IMG/VR virus record: IMGVR_UViG_3300017759_003727
Location: 18,911 to 82,910 of that record
DNA: 64,000 bases
DNA from: a virus
Direction: 5' to 3' (one strand)
Positions 33,784-62,086 of this stretch are shown here, in pieces. A program made the translations under genes and the position numbers. How positions within the stretch are numbered: position 1 is the first letter of the stretch; each line of letters opens with the position of its first letter. The notes below the pieces were generated by a model, which was not told where the DNA came from, ran no database searches, and was given only the letters and a program-made list of their open reading frames with translations.

Positions 33784-33785
33784 AA

Positions 33786-37183: not shown

Positions 37184-38196
37184 AATTCTTCTAACCAATG
37201 TTTGTTTTTTAGGTTCCATAAAACAGTCTTTTTTAAACTGTTTGCAAAATCAATTGGGGGTTTCCAACCTAATTTTTCTAATTTACTTCCATCTAAGGAA
37301 TATCTTAAATCATGGCCAGGCCTATCTGAATGAAAATCTACCATTTCATATTTTGGTTTAATATTCATAGAGTCTCCGATCATTTTTACTATATCTAAAT
37401 TTGAAACTTCTTTTGTCCCTACAATGTTGTATTTACCTAAAGAAGCGTCCTTCCCGTCTAAAAACTCAGTTGCGTTTTCTAGTATAAATATAAAAGCATC
37501 TGAAACATTTCTTGCGTGAATATAATAACGACTGCCAGATTTTTTCTTATCTGGATAACTGTGAACCATAATTGTTTCTTCTTTTAAAATAGAACCTATA
37601 ACTTTAGGTACAAATTTTTCAGAGTGTTGCCTTTCTCCAATAATATTCATTGTATTCGTGATTATAATCGGAAGCCTATATGTATTTGCGTAAGATTGAC
37701 ATATGCACTCTGCTGCAGCTTTACTCGCAGAGTATGGATTGCCACAATTGTACCTATCTCCTTCTTTGTAAGCTACCCCTTCTGGCGCATAACCGAAAAC
37801 CTCATCAGTTGAAAAATAAATAAACTTTTTTAAATTTTTAGCATGAGTTCTGCAAAATTCTAAAAGATTTACTGTAGATGAGACATTGTTTTGAATAAAA
37901 GTTGATGGGTCGGAAATAGAATTATCAACATGTGACTCTGCCGCTATGTGAAGTATGTAGTCAACATCTTTAATTTCTTCTGCTAAACCTAATGGAATTT
38001 TTGAACATAAATCGAAAGAAAAGAAATTTACTCTTGGATTTGTTATAGCCGCGGTTTCCCTCAATCTTTTTAAACCAAAACTAGAATAACTTAATTGATC
38101 TATACAGTATATTTCCCAATCTGTATTTCTTAATATATGGTCTAAGACGTGATGCCCCACGAAACCGTTTGAACCTGTTAAAATAACTTTTTTCAT
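37180..38196 (-). CDS. RmlB-like NDP-sugar 4,6-dehydratase
   Basis: A 338-residue short-chain dehydrogenase. It has TGSNGFVGHHVLDHIL (NAD binding), HIAAESHVDNSI, the catalytic FSTDEVFG, NPYSASKAAAE with Tyr and Lys, and RPGHDLRYSLD, the diagnostic end of dTDP-glucose 4,6-dehydratase and close relatives. Neither RmlA, RmlC nor RmlD is encoded here, so the product is probably passed to the DegT aminotransferase next door rather than to rhamnose (inference). Confidence 0.87.
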   Translation of the reverse strand: MKKVILTGSNGFVGHHVLDHILRNTDWEIYCIDQLSYSSFGLKRLRETAAITNPRVNFFSFDLCSKIPLGLAEEIKDVDYILHIAAESHVDNSISDPSTFIQNNVSSTVNLLEFCRTHAKNLKKFIYFSTDEVFGYAPEGVAYKEGDRYNCGNPYSASKAAAECICQSYANTYRLPIIITNTMNIIGERQHSEKFVPKVIGSILKEETIMVHSYPDKKKSGSRYYIHARNVSDAFIFILENATEFLDGKDASLGKYNIVGTKEVSNLDIVKMIGDSMNIKPKYEMVDFHSDRPGHDLRYSLDGSKLEKLGWKPPIDFANSLKKTVLWNLKNKHWLEEL

Positions 38197-39308
38197 TTTA
38201 ATTTTTTATGCATTAGAAAGCTTTCTGTATCTATAGTAAAACCTTCTATCTCCTTTTCAATAAAGCCTATATCTTTATATAGATTGATTGCTGTTTTGTT
38301 TTGTTTTTTTACTAGAAGGTATATATCATCTTCCTCAATCATTTCAAAAAAATCATAGTATAGTTGTTTTGCTAGTCCTAAACCTCTTTTGCTTTTATGT
38401 AAATCCATACCAACGAAGAATAAATTATTTTCATTTGAAGTTCTAAAATAACCTATTTTTTCATCATTCATCTTTATAGTATAAAAATTTGGATTTGTTT
38501 CTTTAAACCATTTTATTGATTCTTCTTTTGTATACTTAGATGTATTGTGTAGCATTTGCCTGCAATCATTTCTTACCTCATTATAGAAAGGGACATCTTC
38601 TAGAATCATTTTTTTTATAGAGAAATCATTAAATATATAATTGTAATACTTTCTCCTGTGGTTTTTTTGTTTTTCATTAAACAACTTTTCGATTTCATGC
38701 ATGCCGAAACTTGTGTATAATTTAGATTGATCTGGAGAATGATGCTCTGTTGAAAAATTTGAACAAGTATTTATATCTGCGTATTTAAAGCCTTCAAATA
38801 CTAAAGCTTGATTAAAGGAAAAAGATGTTATTAAGTCTTCAGCCTCTTCAGAAAAAAGAGATTCGTGTTTTTCGTATAATTGAGAAACTCTTTTGCAAAA
38901 ATTATAAGACCTAAGGGAAAATCCCCCATTCCCGCAGTATAAAAAACCTTGATGATGCATTGGTGCTCCGATATAATCAAAATTTAAAAAACTGTCATCC
39001 CAAGCAGAGGGGTTTCTTATAAAGCCATCGGTATGAAAATTTATCATATACTTTGTGGCAAATAATTTAAAATAATTTTTTAATACATACTTGGTGAAGT
39101 TTTCGTATGGTATTTCTTTGATTATTTCTATTTCAAAATCACCGACATCTATAGTTGGTTCTTCTATTGTGTATATAATTTTCTTACCGAAGTTTATATG
39201 TCTAGAAGTCTTTTGACCTATTTTTAGAATAGAATCTATGTCAGAATACGGTTTATCTGTCTTATTGCCTACTATTGATAGATAAGTAATTTCTGGAAGA
39301 TTTAACAT
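38193..39308 (-). CDS. Fusion of a DUF5672-like glycosyltransferase and a GNAT acetyltransferase
   Basis: A 371-residue two-domain protein. Residues about 1-215 resemble the DUF5672 family (YMINFHTDGFIRNPSAW, FDYIGAPMHHQ, GNGGFSLRS), thought to be glycosyltransferases. Residues about 225-371 are a GNAT domain: FFVGMDLHKSKRGLGLAKQLY with the RGxGL-type acetyl-CoA loop, then NKTAINLYKDIGFIEKE. A plausible job is acetylation of an amino sugar and its transfer by one chain. It is coupled to both neighbours by 1-4 base overlaps. Confidence 0.8.
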   Translation of the reverse strand: MLNLPEITYLSIVGNKTDKPYSDIDSILKIGQKTSRHINFGKKIIYTIEEPTIDVGDFEIEIIKEIPYENFTKYVLKNYFKLFATKYMINFHTDGFIRNPSAWDDSFLNFDYIGAPMHHQGFLYCGNGGFSLRSYNFCKRVSQLYEKHESLFSEEAEDLITSFSFNQALVFEGFKYADINTCSNFSTEHHSPDQSKLYTSFGMHEIEKLFNEKQKNHRRKYYNYIFNDFSIKKMILEDVPFYNEVRNDCRQMLHNTSKYTKEESIKWFKETNPNFYTIKMNDEKIGYFRTSNENNLFFVGMDLHKSKRGLGLAKQLYYDFFEMIEEDDIYLLVKKQNKTAINLYKDIGFIEKEIEGFTIDTESFLMHKKLK

Positions 39309-39667
39309 TAATCTCCTTTCGTTACTCTATAACTATCTTCATCAAAATGTTGCGTAGAAAACTCGAACATTTCTGTGTCCTCTAAGGCTTGCATTTGATG
39401 TACTAAGCCAGTGTGTACCCAAAAATTATCTCCAGGTTCTAGTATAACTTCTTTTGCTTTTTCGATTTCGTGATGGTATCCATATCTAACTAAAAGTTTA
39501 CCTGTTCTAATATAGAACACTTCATCTTTTAATTCGTGATAATGCCAAGAGCATTTTTTGCCTTTAGCAAACCATAAAATTTTTCCACAGTATTCGTGTT
39601 TGTTTACGATCCATTTTTCGTAACCCCAACCTTTGGGAACAAACTTAATCTCTGAAAAATTCTTCAT
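39308..39667 (-). CDS. Cupin-fold sugar-processing protein
   Basis: A 119-residue single cupin. CSWHYHELKDEVFYIRTG is the first cupin motif with the His pair and Glu. EPGDNFWVHTGLVHQMQAL is the second, with its His. The closest functional analogues are mannose-6-phosphate isomerase C-terminal domains and sugar isomerase/epimerase cupins. It overlaps the HAD gene by 23 bases. Its role in the cassette could be isomerisation of a phosphorylated or nucleotide sugar. Confidence 0.78.
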   Translation of the reverse strand: MKNFSEIKFVPKGWGYEKWIVNKHEYCGKILWFAKGKKCSWHYHELKDEVFYIRTGKLLVRYGYHHEIEKAKEVILEPGDNFWVHTGLVHQMQALEDTEMFEFSTQHFDEDSYRVTKGD

Positions 39668-39959
39668 CTTTTATTGCTTTATCGTCTATATAAAAATCAC
39701 CAGCTGGCTTACCCATGAATAACTTATGATACTTTGCTCCCCAATTTTTCAACTGTTTTTCTGTTAATTTTTTGAAAAGGTTTGGATTGTTATTATTTGA
39801 ACGACCCATACCTCTGGCTGTTAGAAAATGGATTGTATGTCCTTCGTCGTATAGTTTGTTTATTTTTTTTATTCTATCTTTTTTGGGTATTGAGTTTTTG
39901 TAATCACCACCCTGTATTTGATAACAAATAGTTCCGTCTATATCAATTACGTACGTCAT
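39645..39959 (-). CDS. Small HAD-superfamily phosphatase
   Basis: A 104-residue HAD-like protein: YVIDIDGTICY with the D-x-D, IHFLTARGMGR as motif II, and KPAGDFYIDDKAI with the lysine and acidic motif. This small type is found near capsule and LPS genes. Lying directly between the hldD-like gene and the cupin, it is the better positional candidate for the heptose bisphosphate phosphatase step, though it lacks GmhB's zinc site. It overlaps hldD by 17 bases. Confidence 0.75.
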   Translation of the reverse strand: MTYVIDIDGTICYQIQGGDYKNSIPKKDRIKKINKLYDEGHTIHFLTARGMGRSNNNNPNLFKKLTEKQLKNWGAKYHKLFMGKPAGDFYIDDKAIKDEEFFRD

Positions 39960-40734
39960 CTAAATATTTTTTATATTCTACTAACCCTTTATCTATGGTA
40001 TACTTAGGTTTCCAATTTGGCATCCATTTTTCAGAATTAGACCTTGTATAAAATTGATACCATTTTGGTATCTCCCTAAGGTGATGATATTTACGGCGAA
40101 CACCCATTATGCTTAAAACATCTTCAAATGTTCTGGCTTCTCCGCTTCCAACTTCATAAACTCCTTTTGGGGCTTCTATAGCATGGATATTTGCGTCAAC
40201 AACATCTTGTATATAAACAAAATCTCTTTTGGGTTCTTTTTGAAAAATTCTAAATTGACCTTTTTTATGAGCTTGGTTAGCAACTGATGCCATTTTACCT
40301 TTGTGGCATTCCCCAGGACCGTAAACATTAAAATATCTTAAAGCTACAAAATTATCGCATTTTGCCATACCGTAATCTTCTGCAACAAGTTTAGACCAGC
40401 CATAAATATTTAAAGGAGTTTGATCATCGACTCCATCTCCATAGCAAGCAGCAGAAGACGAGTATACGACTTTCTTATTCATGGATTGACATAGATTAAA
40501 TAAAGTTTTACTAAATGTATAATTAAAAGTCATCATCTCCGCTTCGTCTTGAAGGGATGTATCTGATATAGCTCCAACATGAAACACTATGTCTGACTCT
40601 GTCAAAGCAGCTACAAGTTCTGGAGACCAACAGTCTTCGATATCAAAACAATATACCACATCGTATATTTCTTGAAGTTTTTTTTCTAAGGCTTTTCCTA
40701 TAAATCCTTTATATCCTGTCAATAATGCTTTCAT
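39943..40734 (-). CDS. hldD: ADP-L-glycero-D-manno-heptose 6-epimerase (HldD-like)
   Basis: A 263-residue short-chain dehydrogenase with HldD-specific segments: SSAACYGDG, LNIYGWSKLVAEDYG with the catalytic Tyr and Lys, and LRYFNVYGPGECHKGKMAS, in which the heptose-binding HKGxMAS is diagnostic. KRDFVYIQDVVDANI follows. It converts ADP-D,D-heptose to ADP-L,D-heptose, the donor for LPS inner-core heptosyltransferases. The protein is shorter than the cellular enzyme (about 310 residues). It overlaps the kinase gene by 26 bases. Confidence 0.88.
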   Translation of the reverse strand: MKALLTGYKGFIGKALEKKLQEIYDVVYCFDIEDCWSPELVAALTESDIVFHVGAISDTSLQDEAEMMTFNYTFSKTLFNLCQSMNKKVVYSSSAACYGDGVDDQTPLNIYGWSKLVAEDYGMAKCDNFVALRYFNVYGPGECHKGKMASVANQAHKKGQFRIFQKEPKRDFVYIQDVVDANIHAIEAPKGVYEVGSGEARTFEDVLSIMGVRRKYHHLREIPKWYQFYTRSNSEKWMPNWKPKYTIDKGLVEYKKYLDDVRN

Positions 40735-41482
40735 AATCTTCTTTTTCTAAAACGTATGTTCCTGTTTTTGAGACCGACAGACTTGCTAATTTATTACCTA
40801 GCTTAATTGCCTTCTCAATATTATTGTAATACAAGTAACCGAAAATTAAAGAGGAAAGAAAAACATCTCCTGCCCCACATACATCAAATACTTCAGTTTT
40901 GTCCGTTGGATATATTTTGTTTTTATATAAAGCCCCCTTTGAGCCTAACGTAACAATTGTTTCTGCGCTAGGGTCTATTGATTTTGATTCATTAAATTCT
41001 TTTTCATTTATTTTTAAATAACAATTAGTAAAGCACGATAAATCTTTCTTTTTGGAATCTACAAAAATTGTTTTATTTTTAAATGTTTTGCAAAGTCTTC
41101 TAGCGAATTCGGGATCTATCAACCCTTTATTATAATCACTTATAACAAGTATATCAAAATCATGAAAATGATCAGCTAATTGTTTAACTTTATCAGATTC
41201 ACCCACATCGTATCTAGCAACGTGGCAATTAAACCTTGTGTCTATTAACCTATGTTTTTCAAGTTTTTCTTCATTTGTTAAATGTCGAACATCTAAACAA
41301 AATGAATCTAAGTTTAGTTTTACATTTGCAGCCATACCTTTTTTTATTTCGGTATGGGTTTCTTTTAGTACTGGTACTGGTGCCTCTGGATTTAATCTGT
41401 CACAAGTTCCATAGTGATAGATATCATCGCAAGATTCACCTATCAGTAAGATTCTGTAAGGTTGAGGTTGTGGAGTATCCAT
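40709..41482 (-). CDS. hldA: D-glycero-D-manno-heptose-7-phosphate kinase (HldE N-domain/HldA-like)
   Basis: A 257-residue PfkB/ribokinase-fold kinase. Diagnostic pieces are LNPEAPVPVLK near the N-terminus, VISDYNKGLI, and the anion-hole motif DVCGAGDVFLSSL with the catalytic Asp. It phosphorylates heptose 7-phosphate at C1. In enterobacteria this domain is fused to the nucleotidyltransferase as HldE; here the two are separate, and the transferase gene comes first in transcription order. It is shorter than the usual 310-320 residues. It overlaps the upstream gene by 47 bases. Confidence 0.85.
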   Translation of the reverse strand: MDTPQPQPYRILLIGESCDDIYHYGTCDRLNPEAPVPVLKETHTEIKKGMAANVKLNLDSFCLDVRHLTNEEKLEKHRLIDTRFNCHVARYDVGESDKVKQLADHFHDFDILVISDYNKGLIDPEFARRLCKTFKNKTIFVDSKKKDLSCFTNCYLKINEKEFNESKSIDPSAETIVTLGSKGALYKNKIYPTDKTEVFDVCGAGDVFLSSLIFGYLYYNNIEKAIKLGNKLASLSVSKTGTYVLEKEDYESIIDRI

Positions 41483-41936
41483 TTACTTTTTTAAAAAATT
41501 TTAATTCTTTAGTGTGCTCTGAGCCGATTACTTTTTTATTTTTGTATTCTTCACCAACTACCATAGTTTCTGGATTACATTGGTATACAAGTTCTTCTAA
41601 TTCATCGTCGTTATCAAAAACAACAACTGTATCTACGTATTTTAGAGATAGTAACATTTCTTTTCTGTCCTCTTCTGTGTTGATAGGTCTAGATTCTCCT
41701 TTGAGTTTTTTAACTCGAGAATCTGAATCTATACCAACAACTAGGTGTGGTGCAAAGCTTTTAGCATATTTAAAAAGTCTAATATGACCAATATGCAATA
41801 CATCAAAACATCCGTTTACAAAAACTTTACTTTGATCATAATAGTTAACAGGGATTCGCGGATTACCCCCATATTTGGTTTTTTCCGCTTCGACAAAAGC
41901 TTTTTCTGTATGCGAAAACTGTCTTTTCTTTCTCAT
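41436..41936 (-). CDS. hldC: Heptose-1-phosphate adenylyltransferase (HldE C-domain/HldC-like)
   Basis: A 166-residue cytidylyltransferase-fold enzyme. KVFVNGCFDVLHIGHIRLF carries the HxGH nucleotide-binding motif. VVGIDSDSRVKKLKG and RPINTEEDRKEMLLSL match the RfaE domain II signature. GYSTTSTLQ corresponds to the YSTT loop. It forms ADP-D,D-heptose from heptose 1-phosphate and ATP. It is the first gene of the 18-gene glycan cassette, with a weak promoter candidate in the 44-base gap upstream. Confidence 0.88.
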   Translation of the reverse strand: MRKKRQFSHTEKAFVEAEKTKYGGNPRIPVNYYDQSKVFVNGCFDVLHIGHIRLFKYAKSFAPHLVVGIDSDSRVKKLKGESRPINTEEDRKEMLLSLKYVDTVVVFDNDDELEELVYQCNPETMVVGEEYKNKKVIGSEHTKELKFFKKVNGYSTTSTLQNLTDR

Positions 41937-41980: not shown

Positions 41981-42166
41981 TTAAGTCTTTCTGTGCTCTC
42001 TCCAGTCTTTTCTATGTAATCTGACCCATGTTAATAAAGCTTTTTCAAAACCTATATCTTCTTGGGCTTTTTGTGATTCTATCCACTTAAGTTTTAATAT
42101 TTCTTCTCTTTCCGCTAAGAACTCTTGATAAAGAGTAGATCCTGTGGCGAAATGACTAGACATCAA
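41981..42166 (-). CDS. Small hypothetical protein
   Basis: A 61-residue basic protein (MMSSHFATGSTLYQEF...), predicted mostly helical, ending in LTWVRLHRKDWREHRKT. No family is recognised. It starts 4 bases inside the end of the upstream structural-like gene, so it is translated from the same late mRNA. It could be a small virion or assembly accessory. Confidence 0.6.
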   Translation of the reverse strand: MMSSHFATGSTLYQEFLAEREEILKLKWIESQKAQEDIGFEKALLTWVRLHRKDWREHRKT

Positions 42167-43152
42167 TAACCTTCTTCTTCGATAACTTGAGCTTCGGAAA
42201 GTTGGGGATAAATATCAAGAAGTGAAGCATCTGATGATAATTCTGCTTCTACTTTTTTGCCAGCTCTCCATTGTTTGCAAGACCAATATCTGGCTTTGTA
42301 TTTGGGGCCAGGATTTGTATCGCATTTGTGTCTAGCTCTAAATGATTTACGACGTTCTGGATCATCTCTTTTGATTTCCATATTTGGGTCACCAAAAGTA
42401 ACTTTAACTACATTACCTTTATCGTTTTTTACATAAACACCAAATTTTTTCTTAGACCCCTTAGGTAATCTAAATGGTTTATTTAAAGTTTTAGCTTCAG
42501 CGCTATCTATATCAAATATTGATATACCTTCTTCTTCTAAAATTTCAGAAACAGTTGAGCCTATGGAAAGTAAATCTATTTTTGCTAGTGCAAATTCTAT
42601 TTTTGAAATATCTTTATTTTCTTGAAAATCTCCAGGACTCCATGTTTCTGCCTGTAATTCAATGAAAGGAAGTTCTTCTTCTGAAGCTCTAGCAACATCT
42701 TGGTCAGCTTTACGATATGATTCCTTAACTTTGCCGCCTCTCATCATTTTGAGAAACATATTAACTCTAGCCATGGCCCAGGCAGCTCTAGACTGACCTG
42801 GCCTATGTGATGAAGAAAATGCACCAAGACCCCTTCTGTAGACCTTCTTAAGCATACCTAGAGTCACTTTTCTAGAATGTTTTTCATTGTGCTCTTTAAC
42901 CTTGTTTTTAAGGGAGGTGGTGACTTTTTCACTGAAAGTTATTTTACCCTTGGCTTCTTTAACCAAGTCTTTTTCGTCCTGTCTCTTTAGGATTTTTTTT
43001 GATTTTTGTTTGGAGTCTGGAGAAGTGCCAGCGGAGCCAGGCTCATTCTTAGAAGAGCCTTTCTTTTTTTCTTCTGGTTTTGCTGGTGTTTGTGCAGAAC
43101 TTTTCGGTCCTGGTCTACCTGCTACAATCTCATTTGTAAAATCTAACTCCAT
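42163..43152 (-). CDS. Late protein with a charged N-terminus and a conserved basic C-terminal domain
   Basis: A 329-residue protein. Residues about 1-70 are low-complexity, Lys/Ser/Pro/Glu-rich. A helical basic middle follows (GMLKKVYRRGLGAFSSSH). The C-terminal domain (KFGVYVKND, FGDPNMEIKRDDPERRK, RARHKCD, KARYWSCKQW) resembles a module I associate with structural or scaffold-type proteins of marine phages; its exact function is not known to me. It has the GTGTAA motif 8 bases before ATG 43152, where the motif's TAA is the stop codon of the methyltransferase gene upstream. Confidence 0.7.
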   Translation of the reverse strand: MELDFTNEIVAGRPGPKSSAQTPAKPEEKKKGSSKNEPGSAGTSPDSKQKSKKILKRQDEKDLVKEAKGKITFSEKVTTSLKNKVKEHNEKHSRKVTLGMLKKVYRRGLGAFSSSHRPGQSRAAWAMARVNMFLKMMRGGKVKESYRKADQDVARASEEELPFIELQAETWSPGDFQENKDISKIEFALAKIDLLSIGSTVSEILEEEGISIFDIDSAEAKTLNKPFRLPKGSKKKFGVYVKNDKGNVVKVTFGDPNMEIKRDDPERRKSFRARHKCDTNPGPKYKARYWSCKQWRAGKKVEAELSSDASLLDIYPQLSEAQVIEEEGY

Positions 43153-43166
43153 GGTATTATTTACAC
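43153..43166 (-). promoter_or_regulatory. Late-type promoter GTGTAA-N8-ATG
   Basis: On the - strand GTGTAA (43161-43166), then 8 bases and ATG 43152. The motif overlaps the last codon and stop of the upstream gene (GTG TAA). Confidence 0.65.
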
Positions 43167-43751
43167 ATTTTTAAGTTTAAATATATATTTTAATTGATTA
43201 TTTGGTGAAATTTCTTCTGCAAAGAGAAAATATGGAGACAGAATACTAAAAAGAACCTCAAATTCTATTTTTTTACTTATTCCTAATTTATTGAATTGAG
43301 CTTTTATTTCTATTTCTTTTATTTTAGTTTTATTAAAATTTATACCTTTTATAACCTCAGATTCATAACCTTCAACATTTAAATACAGTTTTTCTATTTC
43401 TAGTATGTTTATTTCTTCTAGTATTGCTTGCAGTGTAGATGCTGAACATTTATGTTTTTTAGCAGAATGTATTTCTATTTGTTCGCTTACAAAATCTTCT
43501 TTTACATCTAAAACGCTACATTGCTCTAGGGAATGTTTTTCGTTTAAAATTATATAATTATCTTTATACTCTGAAGAAACTAACGCTTTGTTGATTAAAA
43601 TATTTTTCTCTGTTCTGTTTTGTTTTAATCTATCAAATGAATATGGGTGGGGTTCGATCAGTATACAACATATGTCTTCATAACTATCACACCAAGAAGT
43701 GACGCCTTGAAACAAGCCATCCTGGGCACCAGCTTCTATTACATAATGCAT
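43161..43751 (-). CDS. FkbM-family methyltransferase-like protein
   Basis: A 196-residue protein of the Methyltransf_21 (FkbM) type. YVIEAGAQDGLFQGVTSW is motif I, CILIEPHPYSFDRLKQ the ribose-binding strand, and LYLNVEGYESEVIKGI a typical FkbM motif near the C-terminus (usual form: KIDVEGxE). It probably O-methylates a sugar, or possibly a virion component. ATG 43751 overlaps the upstream stop as TAATG and is preferred to ATG 43760. It is co-transcribed with the coiled-coil membrane protein gene from a late-type promoter. Confidence 0.75.
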   Translation of the reverse strand: MHYVIEAGAQDGLFQGVTSWCDSYEDICCILIEPHPYSFDRLKQNRTEKNILINKALVSSEYKDNYIILNEKHSLEQCSVLDVKEDFVSEQIEIHSAKKHKCSASTLQAILEEINILEIEKLYLNVEGYESEVIKGINFNKTKIKEIEIKAQFNKLGISKKIEFEVLFSILSPYFLFAEEISPNNQLKYIFKLKNV

Positions 43752-44038
43752 TAGCCCCAAAGATTATAAGCTATAATACCTGCAATTGCAGTAAGCAAAC
43801 CGCTAATAAAAATCCAAGATAGTTTATTAAATGTAGTCATGAAAGCCTTTGTTTCTCCAACAGTTCTTTCCATTTCCATCATTCTTGAATTCATATCATC
43901 TATTTTTTTGAACAATACATCTGTAAGTGTGCCTAATTGAATTAGTTTTTCTTCAGCTCTAGCGATTGAAATAACAGCATCAGATAGTTTGTCTATCTTC
44001 TCCTCCATTCTCGTTAATCTATCTTCATTTTCGGACAT
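43751..44038 (-). CDS. XhlA-like coiled-coil protein with a C-terminal membrane anchor
   Basis: A 95-residue protein. Residues about 1-68 form a heptad-rich coiled coil (LTRMEEKIDKLSDAVISIA...). Residues about 72-92 form one membrane helix (LSWIFISGLLTAIAGIIAY). This architecture resembles XhlA/hemolysin-associated phage proteins, which cooperate with holins. No endolysin is seen next to it. The late-type motif in the 18-base gap after nrdA supports late expression, as expected for lysis or virion genes. Confidence 0.68.
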   Translation of the reverse strand: MSENEDRLTRMEEKIDKLSDAVISIARAEEKLIQLGTLTDVLFKKIDDMNSRMMEMERTVGETKAFMTTFNKLSWIFISGLLTAIAGIIAYNLWG

Positions 44039-44053
44039 TAAAATGTTTTACAC
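44039..44053 (-). promoter_or_regulatory. Late-type promoter GTGTAA-N9-ATG
   Basis: On the - strand GTGTAA (44048-44053), 9 bases, then ATG 44038. It lies between the stop of the ribonucleotide reductase gene and the XhlA-like gene, marking a change from early to late expression on the same strand. Confidence 0.6.
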
Positions 44054-44056
44054 TTA

Positions 44057-45727
44057 TTAACCCTCGCATGATGAACATTCTAATAAATTTCTACTTAATT
44101 CTTGAGATGGATTTGTTCCTCTTTGATAGTACAAAGTTTTAACACCCTGTTCCCATGCAAAGATCATAAGTTGACTCACGTCTTTAGGGGAAGATTTTGG
44201 ATGCACCATGATATTCAAGCTCTGAGATTGGTCAATAAACTTTTGACGTTGTGCGGCTTGAATTATAACTTCTTTTTGGCTAATTTCACCAAAAGTTTTA
44301 TATACAGCTTTTTCTTCATCCGTTAAAAAATCTAAATGTTGTACTGATCCACCTTTTACTAGAATTGATTTCCATATTTGTGGAGTATTTTTTTCTTTTT
44401 CTTCTAATAAAGACTCCAAATAAGGGTTCTTATATGTGAATTTTCCTTTAGCTAAGTCTTTAACAAAGTAATTAGAATTTAAGGGCTCGATACTTGGAGA
44501 AACTTGACCTAAAATAAAAGAGCTTGAAGTTGTTGGAGCAATAGCCATTGTGGTTACATTTCTAACACCATATCCTTTTAATAAAGAAGGTTCGCCATAA
44601 ACTTTAGCGAGTTCTTTTGTCGCATATTGAGTTTTTTCTTGAATTGTTTTATGAATTTCTGAATTTAATAATTTAGCTTCAAAAGATTCAAAGGCAATTG
44701 ATTTTGATTGTAATAAAGAATGCCAACCTAGCACGCCTATTCCTAAAGCTCTTTGATTTTTAGCAAAGTTTCTAGGGGCTTCCATAAATGGTAAATTTTT
44801 ACATTTATCTATAAATTCTGTCATAACTGCATCTAGAAAATATGTTAATATTTCTGGTGCGTCTGTATCTTTCCAGTCGTCATAATGAAGTAAATTCATT
44901 GAAGATAGATTACAAACAAAAGACTCATCCTTGTTTGAATGCAAAGCTATTTCAGAACAAAGATTACTAGCATATATTTCTAAGCCTTTATCTTGATATA
45001 CTGGAGGCGCATTTCTGTTCATGGCATTTTTAAAGAAGACGTAAGGATAACCGCTTTCAAATCTTTTTTTGATTATCGATCCCCAAATTTTTCTTTTATC
45101 TTTATCTCCAGCAAGCATTTCTTTCATCCATGTATCGCTAATGGTTACCCCGATAGAAAGATTTTGAATAGCGTTACCGTCACTTCTTATCTGTAAAAAT
45201 TCTAATATATCTGGATGTTCTACTGGTAAATAAGCAGCGAAACTACCTCTGCGGACATTGCTTTGAGAGACGACATTTGCCACCGTTTCAAAAATTTCCA
45301 GAAAATGAACTGGGCCATTTGATTTACCACCACTACTTATTTCGGCACCTCTTTCTCGAAGCTCTCCAAAATATCCAGAAGTGCCTCCACCGTTTTTAGT
45401 CATCATACCTACTTCAGTGCTTTTCTTTAATATTTCTTCCATTTTATCTTCCACAAAGGAACCAAAGCAAGAAATAGGGAGACCTCTGTCTTTACCAAAA
45501 TTAGCCCAAATTGGAGATGATAAAGAATACCACCCCTTGGCCATATAGCTTTGAAACTTTTCAGAAAACCCAGGAATAGATAAAAGGCTTTGTGCTTTGT
45601 CAGCAATAACTTTTATTCTTTCTTCTGGAGTCTCTCCTTCTTCTAGGTAACCTCTTTTTAGGAAAGTTCTAGAATCTTTGTTTAACCAATAAAAATCTTT
45701 CATATTAAAATAAATCGTCTTCGTCAA
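44057..45727 (-). CDS. nrdA: Class I ribonucleotide reductase large subunit, compact
   Basis: A 556-residue catalytic subunit reducing NDPs to dNDPs. LPISCFGSF and NLCSEI carry the redox-active and active-site cysteines; CNLSSMNLL, MAIAPTTSSSFILG (phosphate binding) and the tyrosines in TLYYQRGTN follow in family order. The C-terminus ends in ECSSCEG, the CxxC shuttle for thioredoxin/glutaredoxin. The N-terminal ATP-cone (allosteric activity site) is missing, so the enzyme may escape dATP inhibition (established for other cone-less enzymes). It overlaps nrdB by 23 bases. Confidence 0.92.
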   Translation of the reverse strand: MTKTIYFNMKDFYWLNKDSRTFLKRGYLEEGETPEERIKVIADKAQSLLSIPGFSEKFQSYMAKGWYSLSSPIWANFGKDRGLPISCFGSFVEDKMEEILKKSTEVGMMTKNGGGTSGYFGELRERGAEISSGGKSNGPVHFLEIFETVANVVSQSNVRRGSFAAYLPVEHPDILEFLQIRSDGNAIQNLSIGVTISDTWMKEMLAGDKDKRKIWGSIIKKRFESGYPYVFFKNAMNRNAPPVYQDKGLEIYASNLCSEIALHSNKDESFVCNLSSMNLLHYDDWKDTDAPEILTYFLDAVMTEFIDKCKNLPFMEAPRNFAKNQRALGIGVLGWHSLLQSKSIAFESFEAKLLNSEIHKTIQEKTQYATKELAKVYGEPSLLKGYGVRNVTTMAIAPTTSSSFILGQVSPSIEPLNSNYFVKDLAKGKFTYKNPYLESLLEEKEKNTPQIWKSILVKGGSVQHLDFLTDEEKAVYKTFGEISQKEVIIQAAQRQKFIDQSQSLNIMVHPKSSPKDVSQLMIFAWEQGVKTLYYQRGTNPSQELSRNLLECSSCEG

Positions 45728-46676
45728 ATGATTTGTCTTTTTTAGAATATTCGACAGGACGCTTGAAGAAAAAGTCAGTGGCGGAATTGCCTAAAACATC
45801 TTCATCAAACCACATAGTAAGGTTTATTTTATCTTTGTCAACATCAAAAACCTTATCAAAGCCAATTTGTTCTAAAGATTCATTTAATCTATTTTTTATA
45901 AATTCTTTTAATATATCAGCATTTAATCCCTCTCTATCGTAATCGCCAATAATCCAATCGATAATATTAGACTCTGCCTCAAATGCACATTGAGCTTCTT
46001 CCTTAAGTCTATCTGGTAAGTCGGCGTTGAATAATTCTGGATATTCTTCTCTTAATGTATTGAGAATTTTTGTCCCAACCAGACCGTGAATATTTTCCTC
46101 GCGACTTGTATAAGCTACTTGTTGAGCTGTATCTTTTAGCACATTATCGAATCTGTTAAACCAATTAATGATATAGAACTGGCTAAATAGCGATACATTT
46201 TCTACAAAAAGAGTAAACAAAATCATAGAATATATATATTGTTTTTTGTCATCCTTGTAGCATTTTTCTAGGTATTTTTTTAAGTAGTCAATACGACCCT
46301 TAATAATTGGTAATTTTAGGTTTTCCTCAAAAACATCCTCTAGCTCTAGAACACTCAAAAGGCGCTCATAAGCATTATTATGTATAACCTCAATATTGGC
46401 CATTACATAGCCAAGGTCAGTAATACCTGGATGGGGTAAATGATTCCCGAGATTTGCCCAAAATTTCTTTACAGAAACCTCTACTTGACCAATAGCAGAT
46501 AGAGTCCTTTTGACTATTTCTCTCTCTTGATCATTGAGATTTACCTTAAAATCCTGCACGTCAGATTGGAAATTAAATTCCTTGTCAGTCCAGAAGCCAT
46601 TATGCATGGCGTTTACAAATTCATCCGTCCACGGGTAGAGATTTGGTTTTCTTGATACTTGTTCCTCGAATAGCAT
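45705..46676 (-). CDS. nrdB: Class I ribonucleotide reductase small subunit
   Basis: A 323-residue di-metal radical subunit. Metal ligands appear in GQVEVSVKKFW (first Glu), MANIEVIHNNAYERLL (Glu and His with the nearby Tyr), FVENVSLFSQF (Glu) and SREENIHGLVG (Glu, His). The acidic C-terminal tail should bind the large subunit. It is first in the leftward operon and starts 10 bases after a sigma-70 -10 box, a near-leaderless arrangement. Together with the dNMP kinase on the other side of the divergent region, it supplies dNTPs for the phage replisome. Confidence 0.92.
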   Translation of the reverse strand: MLFEEQVSRKPNLYPWTDEFVNAMHNGFWTDKEFNFQSDVQDFKVNLNDQEREIVKRTLSAIGQVEVSVKKFWANLGNHLPHPGITDLGYVMANIEVIHNNAYERLLSVLELEDVFEENLKLPIIKGRIDYLKKYLEKCYKDDKKQYIYSMILFTLFVENVSLFSQFYIINWFNRFDNVLKDTAQQVAYTSREENIHGLVGTKILNTLREEYPELFNADLPDRLKEEAQCAFEAESNIIDWIIGDYDREGLNADILKEFIKNRLNESLEQIGFDKVFDVDKDKINLTMWFDEDVLGNSATDFFFKRPVEYSKKDKSFDEDDLF

Positions 46677-46686
46677 ATGTAATAAG

Positions 46687-46714
46687 AATTTACACCGTGA
46701 TTTGAATTAGTCAA
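46687..46714 (-). promoter_or_regulatory. Early sigma-70 promoter for nrdBA
   Basis: On the - strand TTGACT (46709-46714), 16 bases, TAAATT (46687-46692), 10 bases to ATG 46676. A GTGTAA (46690-46695) overlaps the -10 but is 13 bases from the ATG, so it may be incidental or give late read-through. Confidence 0.6.
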
Positions 46715-46750
46715 GCTTTTTAGGTAAAAAATAAAAAATATTTTTTTTAC

Positions 46751-46868: not shown

Positions 46869-46897
46869 TTGACATTCTTTCAGAAGTGTCATACATT
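46869..46897 (+). promoter_or_regulatory. Early sigma-70 promoter P2 for the + operon
   Basis: TTGACA (46869-46874), 17 bases, TACATT (46892-46897), then exactly 7 bases to ATG 46905, the same distance as at 21604 and 28622. It predicts a leaderless mRNA. Confidence 0.7.
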
Positions 46898-46904
46898 AAT
46901 TTTT

Positions 46905-47198
46905 ATGTTAATTAAATTAGATGGAGAAGACTTAAATTTCTACTTATGCAGCAGTTCCGATTGGAGTATAGTTGTCTTAGCAGAAGATGAGAGAACTGCA
47001 GCTTCAGTATCTTTAAAGAAGATTATATCTGAACTGGAATTAGATGCAAATGTTTCAGCAGCTATTAGAGTAAAGAAAATAGATGAAAGACTTGAAAATT
47101 CAGATTTTCTAATTAGAATGGATGAAACGCTTTCCGACATAGGAATGCATAAGGAATCAAAAGCATTAAGAGAGATATTAGATAATGATAGGTATTAG
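46905..47198 (+). CDS. Hypothetical early protein
   Basis: A 97-residue acidic protein (MLIKLDGEDLNFYLC...), alternating strand and helix (VSLKKIISELELDANVS, then KALREILDNDRY). No family is recognised. ATG 46905 is chosen because it lies 7 bases after P2; the longer frame from 46770 would translate the AT-rich leader into an improbable Tyr/Ile-rich peptide. It overlaps the dNMP kinase gene by 14 bases and leads the early + operon. Confidence 0.7.
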   Translation: MLIKLDGEDLNFYLCSSSDWSIVVLAEDERTAASVSLKKIISELELDANVSAAIRVKKIDERLENSDFLIRMDETLSDIGMHKESKALREILDNDRY

Positions 47199-47751
47199 TG
47201 GAATAGCCAGGTCTGGAAAAGACACATTAGCAAAAAGCTTTAAAAGAATAATTGAGCAAAAATTAGAACTTGATGTAGAAATCATATCACTAGCTAATCA
47301 GCTCAAAGAAGACTTAGATGATTTAATTATTAAAAATTTTGGATTTTCTGCTTTTTCGGATAATACGAAAGAAAAGAATCTAATAAGGCCTATTCTTGTT
47401 TCTTATGGAGAGTGTATGAAAGAAAAATTCGGAAACCATGTTTGGGTTGAAAAATTAATGGACAAAAGAGATAAAGATAAGTTTACAATTGTACCAGATA
47501 TTAGATTTGATTTTGAAGCTATATTTTTTGCAGAAAAATTAAACGCAGAAATAATTCATATTTCTTTAGAGGGCAATGATTATGTTAACGATATAGAGAA
47601 GGTGAATGATCCACTTGTTCAAGAATTATCAAATATAAAACATACTTGGCCAGTCTTACACCCAGATCAAGTTGAATTATGTGATGCTCATGCAGATATA
47701 TTATTACAAATGATGCCAGATTATAAAATAGAAAAATGGAAGACGATATAA
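47185..47751 (+). CDS. Deoxynucleoside monophosphate kinase-like protein
   Basis: A 188-residue P-loop kinase. The N-terminal IGISGIARSGKDTLAKSF is the Walker A of the phage dNMP kinase family (T4 gp1 type). TIVPDIRFDFEAIFFAE carries the conserved D-x-R of the substrate-binding region, and IIHISLEGND follows. It converts dNMPs, recycled from host DNA or made de novo, to dNDPs. It lies in one operon with the sigma factor and SSB and opposite nrdBA, forming a nucleotide-supply group. Confidence 0.85.
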   Translation: MIGISGIARSGKDTLAKSFKRIIEQKLELDVEIISLANQLKEDLDDLIIKNFGFSAFSDNTKEKNLIRPILVSYGECMKEKFGNHVWVEKLMDKRDKDKFTIVPDIRFDFEAIFFAEKLNAEIIHISLEGNDYVNDIEKVNDPLVQELSNIKHTWPVLHPDQVELCDAHADILLQMMPDYKIEKWKTI

Positions 47752-48317
47752 ATTTAATAAATCAAGTAAAATCTAAAAAAGATAACGATTCCCTAAGGGA
47801 ATTAATCAATAGACATTCTGGTATATATGTTGATATGGTCAACAAGTACATGCCAGAATCTATTGAAGGTAATCATAGGCAAGATATATTAGATGAAAAA
47901 AATTATTCAATATACGATGCTGTTATAAAATTTGATGAATCAAAAAACGCTAAACTAAGTACATATGTAGGCAACATAGCAAAATGGAAGTGTTTAAATA
48001 TTTATAATAAAAATAAAAAATTTCCACATAACTCTTTATTTAATGATGATAAACCTTCTGATAGAATTGATCACGAAAACTTCATCGTTCAACCAGACAT
48101 AAGTAAAATAGAAAACACAGAAAATTTAAACAAAATATATAAATTTGTAAGTAAAGCAAAAGACCCAAGAGTTAAAAAGATATTTAAAATGCGTTATTCT
48201 AAAGGCAATAAAACAACACCTTGGAAAAAAATTGCGAAAAAGCTTGACTTATCAATTCAAGGATGTATAAATATACACAATAACTATTTAAAGGAGATCA
48301 AAAAATATGTTCAATAA
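47736..48317 (+). CDS. Phage-encoded RNA polymerase sigma factor
   Basis: A 193-residue small sigma factor. Region 2 spans about residues 12-105: LRELINRHSGIYVDMVNKY, then YSIYDAVIKFDESKNAKLSTYVG followed by NIAKWKCLN. The latter is the typical F-D-x-(S/K)-x-(A)-x-(F/L)-S-T-Y core of region 2.2-2.4. Region 4, about 145-190, has RVKKIFKMRYSKG and the helix-turn-helix TTPWKKIAKKLDLSIQGCIN. There is no region 1.1 or 3, as in group 4-like and phage late sigma factors. It probably redirects host RNA polymerase to the GTGTAA promoters (inference). It overlaps the kinase and ssb genes. Confidence 0.8.
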   Translation: MEDDINLINQVKSKKDNDSLRELINRHSGIYVDMVNKYMPESIEGNHRQDILDEKNYSIYDAVIKFDESKNAKLSTYVGNIAKWKCLNIYNKNKKFPHNSLFNDDKPSDRIDHENFIVQPDISKIENTENLNKIYKFVSKAKDPRVKKIFKMRYSKGNKTTPWKKIAKKLDLSIQGCINIHNNYLKEIKKYVQ

Positions 48318-48669
48318 ATCAATAATCATGGGTAATCTCGCAAGAGATCCAGACAATAAGAAGGTTGGAGACAACCAAGTGACACGGTTAGTAGTAGCCG
48401 TTAATGATGTAGTGAAGAAAGATAAAGCTCATTACATTGATGTAGAAACGTGGAACAAGACCGCTGAAAACTGCGCTAAATACTTAGCGAAGGGGCGTAA
48501 GGTTCTAGTAGAGGGTCGTTTATTCCAAGATATTTGGGAAAAAGACGGTAAGAAAAATTCTAAAATTTACATTAAGGCTGACAATGTTCAGTTTCTTGGT
48601 GGAAAACAAGATGGTGAGGCAAAGCAGCAAGCTGCGCCAGTTGGAGCGGATGAAGATATTCCATTCTAA
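48307..48669 (+). CDS. ssb: Single-stranded DNA-binding protein
   Basis: A 120-residue OB-fold SSB. NKSIIMGNLARDPDNKK is the family N-terminus. HYIDVETWNKTAENCAKYLAKG is the second conserved block, with Trp for base stacking, and VLVEGRLF follows. The C-terminal acidic tip DEDIPF recruits replication partners, as in bacterial SSB. AAGGAG about 8 bases before ATG 48307 gives one of the better ribosome-binding sites of the window. It overlaps the sigma gene by 11 bases. Confidence 0.93.
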   Translation: MFNKSIIMGNLARDPDNKKVGDNQVTRLVVAVNDVVKKDKAHYIDVETWNKTAENCAKYLAKGRKVLVEGRLFQDIWEKDGKKNSKIYIKADNVQFLGGKQDGEAKQQAAPVGADEDIPF

Positions 48670-50120: not shown

Positions 50121-50127
50121 ACGGCTT

Positions 50128-50168
50128 GGCCCTCTGTATGTGTAAAAACATATAGGGGGTCATTTTTT
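50128..50168 (+). terminator. Rho-independent terminator after hsp20
   Basis: A 14-bp stem (50128-50141 with 50148-50161, a few G-T pairs) and a 6-base loop are followed by six T. It ends the early + operon. Confidence 0.85.
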
Positions 50169-53682: not shown

Positions 53683-55674
53683 TTAATAAGTGTAATAAAA
53701 AATCTTTCCAGTTGTGTCTACATCTGCGTATTGTGGAAATATATCTGCGTCTCTTTGGAAATTGGACGTATTTCCCCAGAGATCAAAATAACCAGTATGA
53801 CTGCTTACTAAAAAATTTCCAGTTTTTACGCTTAAAACATATTCGACTCCACTATATCTACTAATAATGTTTGTGTTACCTAGAAATGAATCCGTTCCCA
53901 CAGCAAAGGTAGACCAATATTGATAAGTTTGATTACTGCCGTCTTGCCCTACTTCAAGTTGTTTTTCATCAAAAACATTTTCCCACCCAATTTTATTCCA
54001 TAAAACAGGATAAAAAGTATAAGTTCCACTAGGTGGTTGATTTTGATAAAACAAAGTTTCAGTTCCTCTTTGAAATGTGCCCGAAGCTACACCAGATTGA
54101 TACAAACCAATATCATCAAAACCTCTACCAGGGTGAAAATCAAAAGTTGATAAAGTATTAACATTATGATAGTTCCCAGAGGGATCAATAACATATAAAT
54201 CAAGATCTGGCCCTCCATCGGTCTGAAAAGGGAATCTTCTACCGTCTTCTCCAGTTTTACTAAGATTAGTCCACTTTAATTCAAAAGCCAAATTTCCAGT
54301 CGTTGTTTTTTCAAAATTTTCATTAAACTGAATACCAGAAGGCTCTCTAACAGGTAAATCTCTTTCTAAACTTATTTTATCAGACTTATGAATAATATCT
54401 ATTGTTCCTGGGTTTCCCTCTGGCAAGGTATATTGCCCAGTCCAACGTTCTGTTATTAACACATTACCGTCTTCCGTAATTAATCTTAACTCAGACCTAT
54501 CGTGTATAAAATTTCTATACTGTACAACTTCTTTTAAGTTAACAGATATTCTGTTGTTGTTTTTGTATACAAATTCATGAATGAAAGAGTTTACTACAAA
54601 ATATTTATCCTTCTTATATAGTTGCGGTAAATTTATTTTAAAAGGTTGTTTGTTCCCCTTTTTTTCTAAAAAATGTATCAATGCTATAGTTTCTTTGTCT
54701 GATCTATTTGAGAAATTTAAATTAAAATCTTCTAAAATATTTTTATTACTGTCTAAGTTTTGACTCTCTAAAATAGAATTGGCAAATTTAAGATTATTCA
54801 TCTTGTCACTTTGTGAAAAAGTCACTTGATCGTCTGGAGTAAATATAGTAGAAAAATCCTGGCTCCAAAGTAATCCAGACATAGTTTCTGGATTAGTGTC
54901 AGTAGCAAAGGGATGTGCAGTTGGACTATCATCAATGTCATTTTGAGCAAAAGAAGTTCCTGCTGCATAATCTCTACGAGCATACCAAAAATTATTAAAT
55001 TCATTTTCGTCTTCTAAATCTTCATTATACAATTTTCCTGTCCAATGTACGATATCAAACCTTTTAGGAAATTTGACCTGCAATCCAAAAGCACTAAATA
55101 ACCAAGTTGGAGCTAACTGAGATGGTACTACTGAATTTCCTACCTCAGATAATATAGAAGACCCAGACCAATTAGTAAAAGGAACTTCCCTGTTGCTTTT
55201 TAAATTTAAATTAAAATCAAACAAGCCTTCGTGCTCTCTTATATCATAGTTCATAACAGAAAGACCAGAAAATTGTTTATATATTCCAGTTGGAAATTTT
55301 ATAGATGCAGTTCCAGGTGGCCCTAAACCATCACCCGAAGGCCTGTATCCATCTGTGAAATTTAAAAGGTATTTTTGCTCTCCACTAAATAGAGGACCTT
55401 CATTAAGGCCAGTACTGATGCCCGTACTTATTGATTCAATTATCCCTAAAAAAGCGTTTGCCTCTCTTTCGCTTCTATTTGTGAAATTTAAACTAAAATC
55501 TATGTTAAAATTGTTTAAGTTTTTATTAACTCTTCTCCTATAATAGTCCGCAGTATATACATCATTCCCTTCAAAATTAAAAGTCACCATTGTCCCATAT
55601 TCTGGAATCAGAGTATCAGTAAATATTACTGGACTGTGGCTTGCATCTCTATTATATAAAGCTAAATCCTTCAT
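53683..55674 (-). CDS. Minor tail protein with two M-like domains
   Basis: A 663-residue protein. Two segments resemble lambda minor tail protein M: residues about 45-180 (NIDFSLNFTNRSEREANAFLG ... DFNLNLKSNREVPF) and about 305-380 (EDFNLNFSNRSDKETIALIHF, then KQPFKINLPQL). The repeated F-x-N-R-S-(E/D)-(R/K)-E motif links them. The C-terminus (about 440-600) is a Gly/Pro-rich beta region with PDLDLYVIDPSGNYH. In lambda, M lies directly after the tape-measure gene, as here, and caps the tube near L. It overlaps the tape-measure gene by 4 bases. Confidence 0.72.
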   Translation of the reverse strand: MKDLALYNRDASHSPVIFTDTLIPEYGTMVTFNFEGNDVYTADYYRRRVNKNLNNFNIDFSLNFTNRSEREANAFLGIIESISTGISTGLNEGPLFSGEQKYLLNFTDGYRPSGDGLGPPGTASIKFPTGIYKQFSGLSVMNYDIREHEGLFDFNLNLKSNREVPFTNWSGSSILSEVGNSVVPSQLAPTWLFSAFGLQVKFPKRFDIVHWTGKLYNEDLEDENEFNNFWYARRDYAAGTSFAQNDIDDSPTAHPFATDTNPETMSGLLWSQDFSTIFTPDDQVTFSQSDKMNNLKFANSILESQNLDSNKNILEDFNLNFSNRSDKETIALIHFLEKKGNKQPFKINLPQLYKKDKYFVVNSFIHEFVYKNNNRISVNLKEVVQYRNFIHDRSELRLITEDGNVLITERWTGQYTLPEGNPGTIDIIHKSDKISLERDLPVREPSGIQFNENFEKTTTGNLAFELKWTNLSKTGEDGRRFPFQTDGGPDLDLYVIDPSGNYHNVNTLSTFDFHPGRGFDDIGLYQSGVASGTFQRGTETLFYQNQPPSGTYTFYPVLWNKIGWENVFDEKQLEVGQDGSNQTYQYWSTFAVGTDSFLGNTNIISRYSGVEYVLSVKTGNFLVSSHTGYFDLWGNTSNFQRDADIFPQYADVDTTGKIFYYTY

Positions 55675-58600
55675 CGAGTATACAATCCTCCACCTGGTCT
55701 AGATTCTTCACCAACAATAGTTACAACAGCTTGCCTTATTCTTTTTGTGAAATTAGTTTCTGAATCTCCTTTACCAGATGTTCTAGTAGATGATTCGCCA
55801 CCATCTCCTCCACCACTTGATGATATATTAAATGAAAGATTTATATTGTTTTGAACTCCGCCACTAGAACTACTTGAACTTACTGAAGAACCAGAACTTA
55901 CAGACCCACTATTTATTTTTTCCATTGTGCCTCTTCCATATTTTTCGACAGCAGATCTTCTCATGACAAACTCACCTCCTGTTAGAAGTGCTGGGACATC
56001 ATCTATCATACCTCCACCTCCAGAAACCGCACCACCTACTGAATATCTTCTTGGAATAAATCCGCCTAAATTTGCTGTGTTTACGCCTCCATCACCTCCA
56101 CCAAGCGCGCCAAAGGCAGAATTTAATATAGTATCTGTAAGATTATTTGCGGCTCTTTGAATAAATGCTTTTTGAATTGTTTGCAAGAAATCATTTGCTA
56201 TACTTTTAAGGGAATCCCCCAAGTCTTTACTCCCATCTAGCGCCTGCATGAATGCATCTGTTAATCCATCAGAAAGTTGAGCTGGTAACGATTTTCCTAA
56301 ATTTTCCATTATTAATTCAGAGTCTTTTCTCATCTCTTTCATAGACTCTCTTGCGCCTGCCATTATTTGTTGTAAATCACTTTGTTTACCCATAACAGGT
56401 ACTGAAGCTATTGAACCTGGACTACCTATATCTTTAGCAAACGTATTGATGCCCTTAAGCATGTTTGATTGTATTTTTGTTTTTTCTTCTTTAGTAATAC
56501 CATCTGTTGCAAAAGCCTTCGCTGCAGCAGATAAACCATCTGTTAACACCTGGTTTATCTCGTTAGTTATTTTTGTTTTAAATTCGGTAGATTTGTTTTC
56601 GTCTGATCTAATATTTTGTGTAGCATATTGTTCAAAAATTTGTTGAACAGAAGGTAAAGCTTCAATTATTTTAAGAAATGGTTCTAAATCCTTTTCTGTT
56701 ATTGATATTACTTCTTCTTTTGTTCTTGTAACATTAGATTTAACTAACGACGATGGCATCATACCAGGCCCACCTGCAGATCCGAACATTATTTGTTGCG
56801 CAACCTTGTTATCGTCTATTGTCCCAACAGCAAGTGTTCTTGTTATATTTTTTTGCAATTCAGCGAAAGAAGGTATATCAAATCCTTTTGTTCTTCCTAA
56901 TGCTATTTGACCTCCAGTTTTTGCTGATACATTCTCGGCAGATGAAATTTGCTCACCCAACATCTGTAATTCATATTGTTGCGAGAACTGAGCTAAATCA
57001 CCTCCTCTTAATGATTCAGTTAAACTTGTGTTTATTTTTATTTGTTTATTTAAATCACTTACGTTTCCAAATAAAGTAGCCACAATTCCCTTACCGTTGT
57101 TAAATGTCTTCATTAACCCATCTGCGGCACCAGTTAAACCTACTAATACACCAACCGCTATACCAACTGGCCCAGTAAATGCCATCATTACAAAAGCAGC
57201 ACTCATTAAACCATTAAGCATTGATGTCAAACCTTGAGCTACATTTTGAGCGGGTCCTTCAACTTCAGTAAGTGCAGCGGAAACTCCATAAGCTACTGTT
57301 TGAACGGCCATTATCGCTGCGAAAGCTCCGCCTCCACTCATGTTACTTGCTGCAGATTTTGAGGGTGCGCTTGAAGAACTAGGCGCGCGATTTGTTGCTG
57401 TATTAAAGCCCATACTTCTTGCTTTAGCAGTAGCCGCTCCACCATGTAATGTTTTTCCACTATCCAACATACTAAACGAACCTGCTGCTCCTCTTGCTAT
57501 ATAGCCATTAGCTCCTCTTCTGTTAAATTCTAAATTTACAGCTCCTCTAAGCCCTCCTTTAAATCTACCTGGAGGTTGTTTGATTTTACCTCCCATCAAC
57601 TCCCCTCTAGCGAATTTGGATATGCTTTTGTTTCCAGCGCCATATTTTTCCATTTTATTCGCCATGCTGTTAAATATTTTAGTATTGCCTCCTATCTTGG
57701 CTTCTATAAATCTAGCATTAGGTGAAATCGATGGATATAGTTCTGATATATTTCTTCTAGCTTTCGTTCCAACAAAATCAAAAGTAGATGTTTGGCCCAT
57801 GTCATATTGAGGGCTTTTTAACAATCCAGAAACCGCAGCTTCAAAAATAACACCTGCCAGTGAAGCCACAGATCCAGCATTTCCTAATTTTGATATTTTT
57901 CCAGATACTGGAGAACCTCCAGAAATTACCTTTGATTGCTGTCTCGCTAAACCAACACCAAATTTTTCTACATTTGATTTTAAAGCGTTATCGTTTTTAG
58001 CTTTGGCTGAACTTTTTCCTGCTTGATTAAATCCAAATAAAGGGAAAGAATAAGATTTACCAGAAGCAGACTTTCCTGTTCCCATATTACCCGCGTTTGA
58101 AGCAGGCGTTATCATTGCAAATCTATCGTCAAAAATAGGACTTTTCGAAGTTCCTGTTCCCTTATAACCTTTTGCAGCTCTTAATTTCATAGCTCCAGCA
58201 GGTAATCCGCCAGAAGCTTGATTTTTGTTAAATATAGCGTCTCCTCCGCCAAAGTTAGGAACAAAATATTCACTAGTATTAGCGATCATTGTTCCCTTTT
58301 TACCGCCTCCAAAATTAAAATTAGGAATAGATACAACTTTTGAGCTAGGAGATGCACCTCCAACTCCTCTAGAGACGTCTCTCTGCTCTGCAGCAACGAA
58401 GCCATCGGCTCCCCTGCCAGTTCTTCCAACACCACCAGCACCTCCTCTAAATCCAGCAGCAAAAATAGCTGGAGAAACTTTTTGAGATATGGCTGCAATC
58501 CTAGCCATCGCATTCGCTTGTTCGTTGTAAACTCTTAATAAAACTTGTTCTTGAGCGGTTTTATTGCCTTCTAATCTAATCAACTCTCTTTGAAGAGCTT

Positions 58601-60050: not shown

Positions 60051-60065
60051 ATATGATTATTACAC
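60051..60065 (-). promoter_or_regulatory. Late-type promoter GTGTAA-N9-ATG (tape measure)
   Basis: On the - strand GTGTAA (60060-60065), 9 bases, then ATG 60050. The motif fills most of the 15-base gap after the upstream gene. Confidence 0.62.
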
Positions 60066-61795: not shown

Positions 61796-62086
61796 TTATT
61801 TTTTAAATCTGAATTCTACAGTTAGACCTTCTAACTCACTATTATAATCTCGCAAAACAGAATTTCCAATATCAAGTATCTTTTTTCTATAGTTATTATA
61901 ATAGTCTTCGTCTAAATAATCAGCCATCGATATTAAATTGTGATGCTCCTCTGGGATAGCGTCATACAACTTTTCGAAGTTGATTTCGTGGTGTTTCTTT
62001 AAATCTTCCATCATACTTAGAAACGATTTAAAAAGAAACCTAATGTGATGATCCGAACGATCATTTAAAAAATCTTGTGCATCCAT
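61796..62086 (-). CDS. Hypothetical small late protein
   Basis: A 96-residue helical, acidic protein (MDAQDFLNDRSDHHIRFLF...), rich in His, Asp and Tyr. No family is recognised. It leads the leftward tail transcript toward the tape measure. Its ATG is preceded by AGGAATAAGG, a usable ribosome-binding site, and lies 19 bases after the left arm of a palindromic GTGTAA pair. It is therefore probably transcribed with a short leader, unlike the divergent gene at 62131. Confidence 0.65.
   Translation of the reverse strand: MDAQDFLNDRSDHHIRFLFKSFLSMMEDLKKHHEINFEKLYDAIPEEHHNLISMADYLDEDYYNNYRKKILDIGNSVLRDYNSELEGLTVEFRFKK

Follow-up and report, generated by a model that had tools for sequence, protein, structure and literature searches.

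Our comparative analysis makes it probable that a phage-encoded late sigma factor, acting together with the host core RNA polymerase, reads the hexamer GTGTAA as a single-element and mostly leaderless late promoter. The window, that is, the whole stretch of DNA analysed, comprises 64,000 bases (positions 18911-82910) of an 82,910-base viral record, here called G000. In the mechanism that we propose, the sigma would be made from an early promoter of the host sigma70 type and would join the host core RNA polymerase, which would then be led to the promoter [A/T]GTGTAA[A/T], a single element located between about 14 and 9 bp upstream of the start site. The sigma would contact GTGTAA directly, no -35 element would be needed, and the genes for the virus particle would in this way be switched on after the early ones.

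The proposed late sigma is encoded by a gene of the window whose open reading frame was confirmed and begins with ATG:

47736-48317, plus strand: sigma70-superfamily protein, 193 aa

Its identity as a sigma factor is established by the agreement of HMM matches, profile matches to PDB chains and an AlphaFold2 model. In a single-sequence Pfam scan, the match to Sigma70_r2 is weak or borderline when taken alone (E 0.019), and the protein matches the sigma factor family phrog_351 at 3.8e-8. Within a family set of 12, consisting of the query and 11 of the 12 relatives found in viral contigs, which are 38-65% identical, phrog_351 is matched by all 12 members, Sigma70_r2 by eight and Sigma70_r4 by one, and the family profile matches SigA/RpoD chains from the PDB with an E of 7e-6. 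The AlphaFold2 model has a mean pLDDT of 77, with a linker at residues 98-126 below 50, and a Foldseek search with this model matched sigma32, SigH and others at 1e-4. Residues ~1-100 of the model align to region 2 of sigmaE/RpoD (Z 9-10, ~2.5-3 Å) and residues ~130-191 to domain 4 of SigA (Z 8.7, 1.9 Å), and the model contains no region 1 or region 3 domain. The product is a two-domain sigma70-superfamily protein composed of region 2 and region 4, just as the original prediction had described it: a 193-residue sigma with regions 2 and 4 only.

The sigma is carried by a large group of uncultivated water phages, and it gave 301 matches in one collection. The relatives on contigs L329-L333 were placed in Flavobacteriaceae, Verrucomicrobiales and Halobacteriovorax MAG bins, which disagree on the host. 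In one genome (G041, 43154-43234), the sigma gene is directly followed by a second, short stretch that is similar to the end of region 4 and has an internal stop codon.

The sigma gene belongs to a plus-strand operon in which a first (head) gene is followed by genes for dNMP kinase, sigma, SSB, a glycosyltransferase and a small protein of heat-shock type, an identity that we assume from reading the sequence by eye, and then by a terminator-like hairpin. The features that define this operon are:

46869-46897, plus strand: sigma70-type promoter of the operon (TTGACA-17-TACATT), near-leaderless, with the ATG of the first gene 7 nt downstream
46905-47198, plus strand: first gene of the operon, function unassigned, start corrected from 46770
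47185-47751, plus strand: deoxynucleotide monophosphate kinase (dNMP kinase), with a 16-nt overlap with the sigma start
48307-48669, plus strand: single-strand DNA-binding protein (SSB), overlapping the sigma end
50127-50162, plus strand: terminator-like hairpin after the operon genes

Both of the neighbours originally assigned to the sigma gene, dNMP kinase and SSB, were confirmed. The ATG of the first gene lies approximately where the RNA from the TTGACA-17-TACATT promoter is expected to start, and TTGAC[AT] is found 27-33 nt before this gene in 12 of 12 family members. From promoter class only, we infer that the operon is early. The hairpin that follows contains a GTGTAA, which is 43 nt away from the next gene downstream (50189), and a GTGTAA at 42-43 nt is also found in G001, G002, G003 and G005.

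The motif itself has to be considered by its placement. The bare hexamer, proposed earlier as a motif of this phage, occurs in the window at chance (27 versus 30.5 expected) and its count was rejected as evidence; it is not enriched overall, and what stands is its occurrence at a fixed distance before start codons. In the window, eight sites are followed 8-9 nt later by the ATG of an ORF that is 60 aa or longer, while the 89 other arrangements of the same letters give a mean of 0.21 and a maximum of 4 at this distance. These eight sites, with two others at greater distance, are:

195-200, plus strand: GTGTAA, 8 nt before the ATG of the gene for a tail L-type minor tail protein (209-1195)
14312-14317, plus strand: GTGTAA, 8 nt before the ATG of a ferredoxin-family (phrog_3704) gene (14326-14961)
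16109-16114, minus strand: GTGTAA, 8 nt before the ATG of gene 14958-16100
25952-25957, minus strand: GTGTAA, 8 nt before the ATG of gene 25680-25943, conserved in 5 genomes
43161-43166, minus strand: GTGTAA, 8 nt before the ATG of gene 42163-43152 (DUF5824), conserved in 5 genomes
44048-44053, minus strand: GTGTAA, 9 nt before the ATG of gene 43751-44038, conserved in 4 genomes
46690-46695, minus strand: GTGTAA, 13 nt before nrdB (45705-46676)
60060-60065, minus strand: GTGTAA, 9 nt before the ATG of the tail tape measure gene (55671-60050)
62106-62111, minus strand: divergent GTGTAA, 19 nt before the ATG of gene 61796-62086
62117-62122, plus strand: GTGTAA, 8 nt before the ATG of gene 62131-62589, with the element shared by 13 of 14 genomes

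Gene 61796-62086 has a real leader with AAGG near its start. Upstream of nrdB (46676-46715, minus strand), TTGACT and GTGTAA overlap, which may make this gene a target of the early as well as the late polymerase. The window also holds a long sugar-nucleotide/glycan-type cassette (28597-41936, minus strand) with epimerase-, nucleotidyltransferase- and aminotransferase-like genes as judged by eye, for which close relatives have, for the most part, no counterpart or a poor match.

The same placement recurs well beyond the window. In 13 sigma-bearing records, GTGTAA precedes the ATG by exactly 8 nt in 35 cases and by 9 nt in 17, with 0.12 expected for each, and no other 6-mer gives a stronger signal at any of the distances tested. 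A further 71 loci, which carry sigma relatives at 40-61% identity, have the motif at 8-11 nt before 52 of 791 genes, where ~0.5 would be expected. Together, the 13 records and 71 loci favour the sigma as the likely reader of GTGTAA, as first proposed. Across 19 genomes, 144 genes carry GTGTAA 7-11 nt before the ATG, compared with three for the reversed word and one for the opposite-strand word (TTACAC). The logo of 57 dereplicated sites has A/T-rich flanks and no -35, and no conserved positions were found 10-40 bp upstream of GTGTAA in these 57 sites. A late-promoter system of this kind was not found described in the literature, where the word GTGTAA gave chance text matches only.

The genes behind the two promoter types fall into largely separate classes. 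In a set of 1,482 genes, the late element precedes 149 and TTGAC[AT] at the early position precedes 148, with six genes carrying both. The late-element genes include those for the tail L-type protein, tape measure, a tail-fibre-assembly-like protein, PhoH and a ClpA-like protein; GTGTAA precedes tail, head-side and tape-measure genes, and in G002 the gene directly after the terminase has GTGTAA at 21 nt. For the DnaB-type helicase, an early-type promoter is present in 9 of 9 cases, and GTGTAA was never found before the helicase, polymerase, primase, SSB and dNMP kinase families in the genomes compared, nor before the sigma gene in 18 genomes. The nrdB family has eight late and seven early promoters among 16 genes; both classes occur, and they overlap in some genomes. 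A sigma70-type promoter before the sigma operon, and GTGTAA before structural genes and never before the sigma gene, support the predicted switch from an early sigma to a late promoter. One phage with lambda-like tail-tip genes also carries RIIA- and RIIB-like genes (L014, 5657-9531).

The association between sigma and motif was tested among 50 long records. The 36 sigma-bearing records contain 364 motif-ATG patterns versus 64 of the reversed pattern, and six sigma-less relatives found through nrdB, which are few and from other lineages, contain 17 versus 17 (Fisher p 6e-6). GTGTAA-ATG is not enriched in four cultured phages that carry other sigmas (17 versus 12). The absence of the motif signal from related and other-sigma phages that lack this sigma lends support to the pairing. 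Eight no-sigma records found via other genes of this phage group contain 47 versus 3 patterns. The largest of these, G059, is motif-rich, and no sigma was found in it; it lacks the whole block homologous to 28.9-69.0 kb of G000, where the sigma lies, and is probably a fragment. As an apparent fragment, it was set aside as a counterexample to the pairing. The other seven, which are smaller no-sigma fragments, also show GTGTAA. The association holds by phage lineage, and another, co-inherited factor could be the reader. Covariation of sigma and motif was not detectable, GTGTAA being invariant among the relatives sampled. Three gene families are common to all 18 sigma-bearing genomes compared: the sigma, a glycosyltransferase and a small protein with no clear Pfam match. 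Of these, only the sigma is a recognised transcription factor.

A fixed spacing of 8-9 nt to the ATG resembles that of a ribosome site, and Shine-Dalgarno words are few in these phages, so GTGTAA might be imagined as a signal for translation (for ribosome binding or as an enhancer) in SD-poor hosts, with the sigma serving something else. We regard this as quite improbable. GTGTAA is well above its control at 12-51 nt, with 80 sites versus 16 for the reversed word in 19 genomes (some of the sites being orthologous), and because it sometimes lies this far upstream we interpret it as a promoter element and not a ribosome site. Its spacing varies within a single gene family, the tape-measure gene having it at 9 nt in some genomes and at 16-17 nt in others, and two copies stand back to back before the divergent genes at 62106-62122, one at 8 nt and the other at 19 nt. 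The most conserved early genes have no GTGTAA yet must be translated. SD-like words precede 23 of the 63 genes that have longer leaders and 2 of the 144 that have a close GTGTAA, the latter a low figure that is partly built in, as GTGTAA fills part of the 15-nt stretch scanned. The sequence pattern points to transcripts from the GTGTAA promoter that mostly start at or next to the ATG. Given that the ATG comes 8-9 nt after GTGTAA, the first transcribed base would lie at or within ~2 bases of the start codon, and most late mRNAs would consequently be leaderless. The sigma70-type genes look leaderless too, because TTGACA stands 29 nt before the ATG (49 versus 2 for the reversed word) and a TANNNT-like signal occupies the -10 position of this class; in these promoters, the distance between the -10 and the ATG differs by no more than a few bases from that between GTGTAA and the ATG, which further disfavours a translation signal.

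If GTGTAA is a late promoter, it could still be read by the host sigma70 holoenzyme together with an activator from the phage, or by some other phage factor, while this sigma drives another class. The lineage-bound nature of the sigma-GTGTAA association would allow this, as would the presence of both promoter classes, with overlapping positions, before nrdB in some genomes. We consider it unlikely, however, given that GTGTAA sites have no -35 element, that the sigma-less nrdB relatives give 17 versus 17, and that no other recognised transcription factor is among the families present in all 18 sigma-bearing genomes. A half-site of a repressor or activator operator is the least probable reading and one to which we give almost no weight. 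It is suggested by TTACAC-N5-GTGTAA, which looks like an inverted repeat and occurs as an inverted pair at 62106-62122 and in several relatives, but nearly all other GTGTAA sites occur singly, with a set orientation and position with respect to the ATG, and at 7-11 nt the opposite orientation is seen once against 144.

The proposed recognition of GTGTAA by the phage sigma can also be considered at the level of residues. In the register of the family HMM, region 2.4 has N80, C86, L87 and N88 invariant and W84 nearly so, and this invariance is not a search-seed effect. We take N80, C86, L87 and N88 to correspond to W433, I439, T440 and R441 of E. coli sigma70, and W84 to Q437. In E. coli sigma70, W433, Q437, I439, T440 and R441 make up the -10/-12 reading and melting surface. 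In region 4.2, I174, G176, I178 and N179 replace R584, R586, R588 and Q589 of sigma70, which face the -35, and these replacements fit the missing -35. Region 4 is nevertheless highly conserved though no -35 is visible at GTGTAA sites, which counts against the late-sigma reading; the invariance of its helix (QGCINIH) is due in part to sampling, as this peptide was used as a search seed.

Several described sigmas offer parallels to this system. In phage phiEco32, gp36, which is reported to be without region 4, uses a single element (tAATGTAtA) with no -35 and a start 6-8 bp downstream, and it drives middle and late genes while early genes use the host sigma70 (PMC8948821). The system here is similar in its phage-encoded sigma, its one conserved element and its lack of a -35, and differs in that region 4 is present and that GTGTAA is placed for putatively leaderless late mRNAs. 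The late sigma gp47 of Salmonella phage 7-11 has regions 2 and 4, as does the sigma described here, and its promoter is bipartite, GTAAtg-16-aCTA (PMC8948821), unlike GTGTAA. The T4 late promoters, TATAAATA, have an 8-bp TATA-type element, no -35 and an A/T-rich downstream sequence (PMC2988020, PMC7892883). The GTGTAA sites resemble these gp55 promoters as a single -10-type element about one turn upstream, without a -35, before late genes; if the ATG is +1, TGTAAAW aligns with TATAAAT (-13 to -7). In T4, the tail of gp55 binds the clamp and a separate protein, gp33, takes the flap-binding role, whereas here a single chain holds both domains. Neither a gp45-type nor a DnaN-type clamp (PF02767, PF02916) was found in 12 records, which are possibly incomplete and in which a divergent clamp could escape detection. 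A DnaE-type polymerase III alpha is encoded at 17731-20307 (minus strand), in a group without a phage clamp found in those 12 records.

These parallels do not extend to the sequence. A profile comparison with known phage late sigmas, suggested earlier as a check, gave no match to gp55, gp36 or 7-11 gp47. The family of phiEco32 gp36 and the 7-11 late sigma was rejected, both being phrog_1740 and the protein here phrog_351, and so was the gp55 family (phrog_234), with an hhalign probability of 0.5% against a 7-member gp55 alignment. T4 gp55 (7d7c) was not among the best matches listed by Foldseek and VIA, which is uninformative either way. The nearest cultured relatives found are the sigmas gp142 and gp152 of Synechococcus phage S-CBWM1 (family profile E 1.3e-8 and 1.2e-7), which are phrog_351, and a protein of gp142 length was the best BFVD structure match. 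S-CBWM1 is a contractile-tailed cyanophage in which GTGTAA-ATG is not enriched (1 versus 1 for the control). The protein is also like ECF sigma factors in combining region 2 and region 4 without region 3, and unlike them in that no conserved -35 element accompanies its putative promoter (57 sites).

The broader reading is that a large uncultivated group possesses a late system of a distinct sigma family, in which the sole element is locked to the start codon, early and late mRNAs are mostly leaderless, and region 4, no longer reading a -35, must serve another role; this combination we judge to have an even chance of being correct as a whole. The collection searched contains no close cultured relative of the environmental phage genomes in this group. 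For many such genomes, the promoter assignments would provide a promoter vocabulary and an early/late division of genes. The proposed late sigma would also add to the phage sigmas that operate from one -10-type element, and it raises the role of region 4 in a sigma without a -35, as well as the prospect of a phage programme run on leaderless mRNAs.
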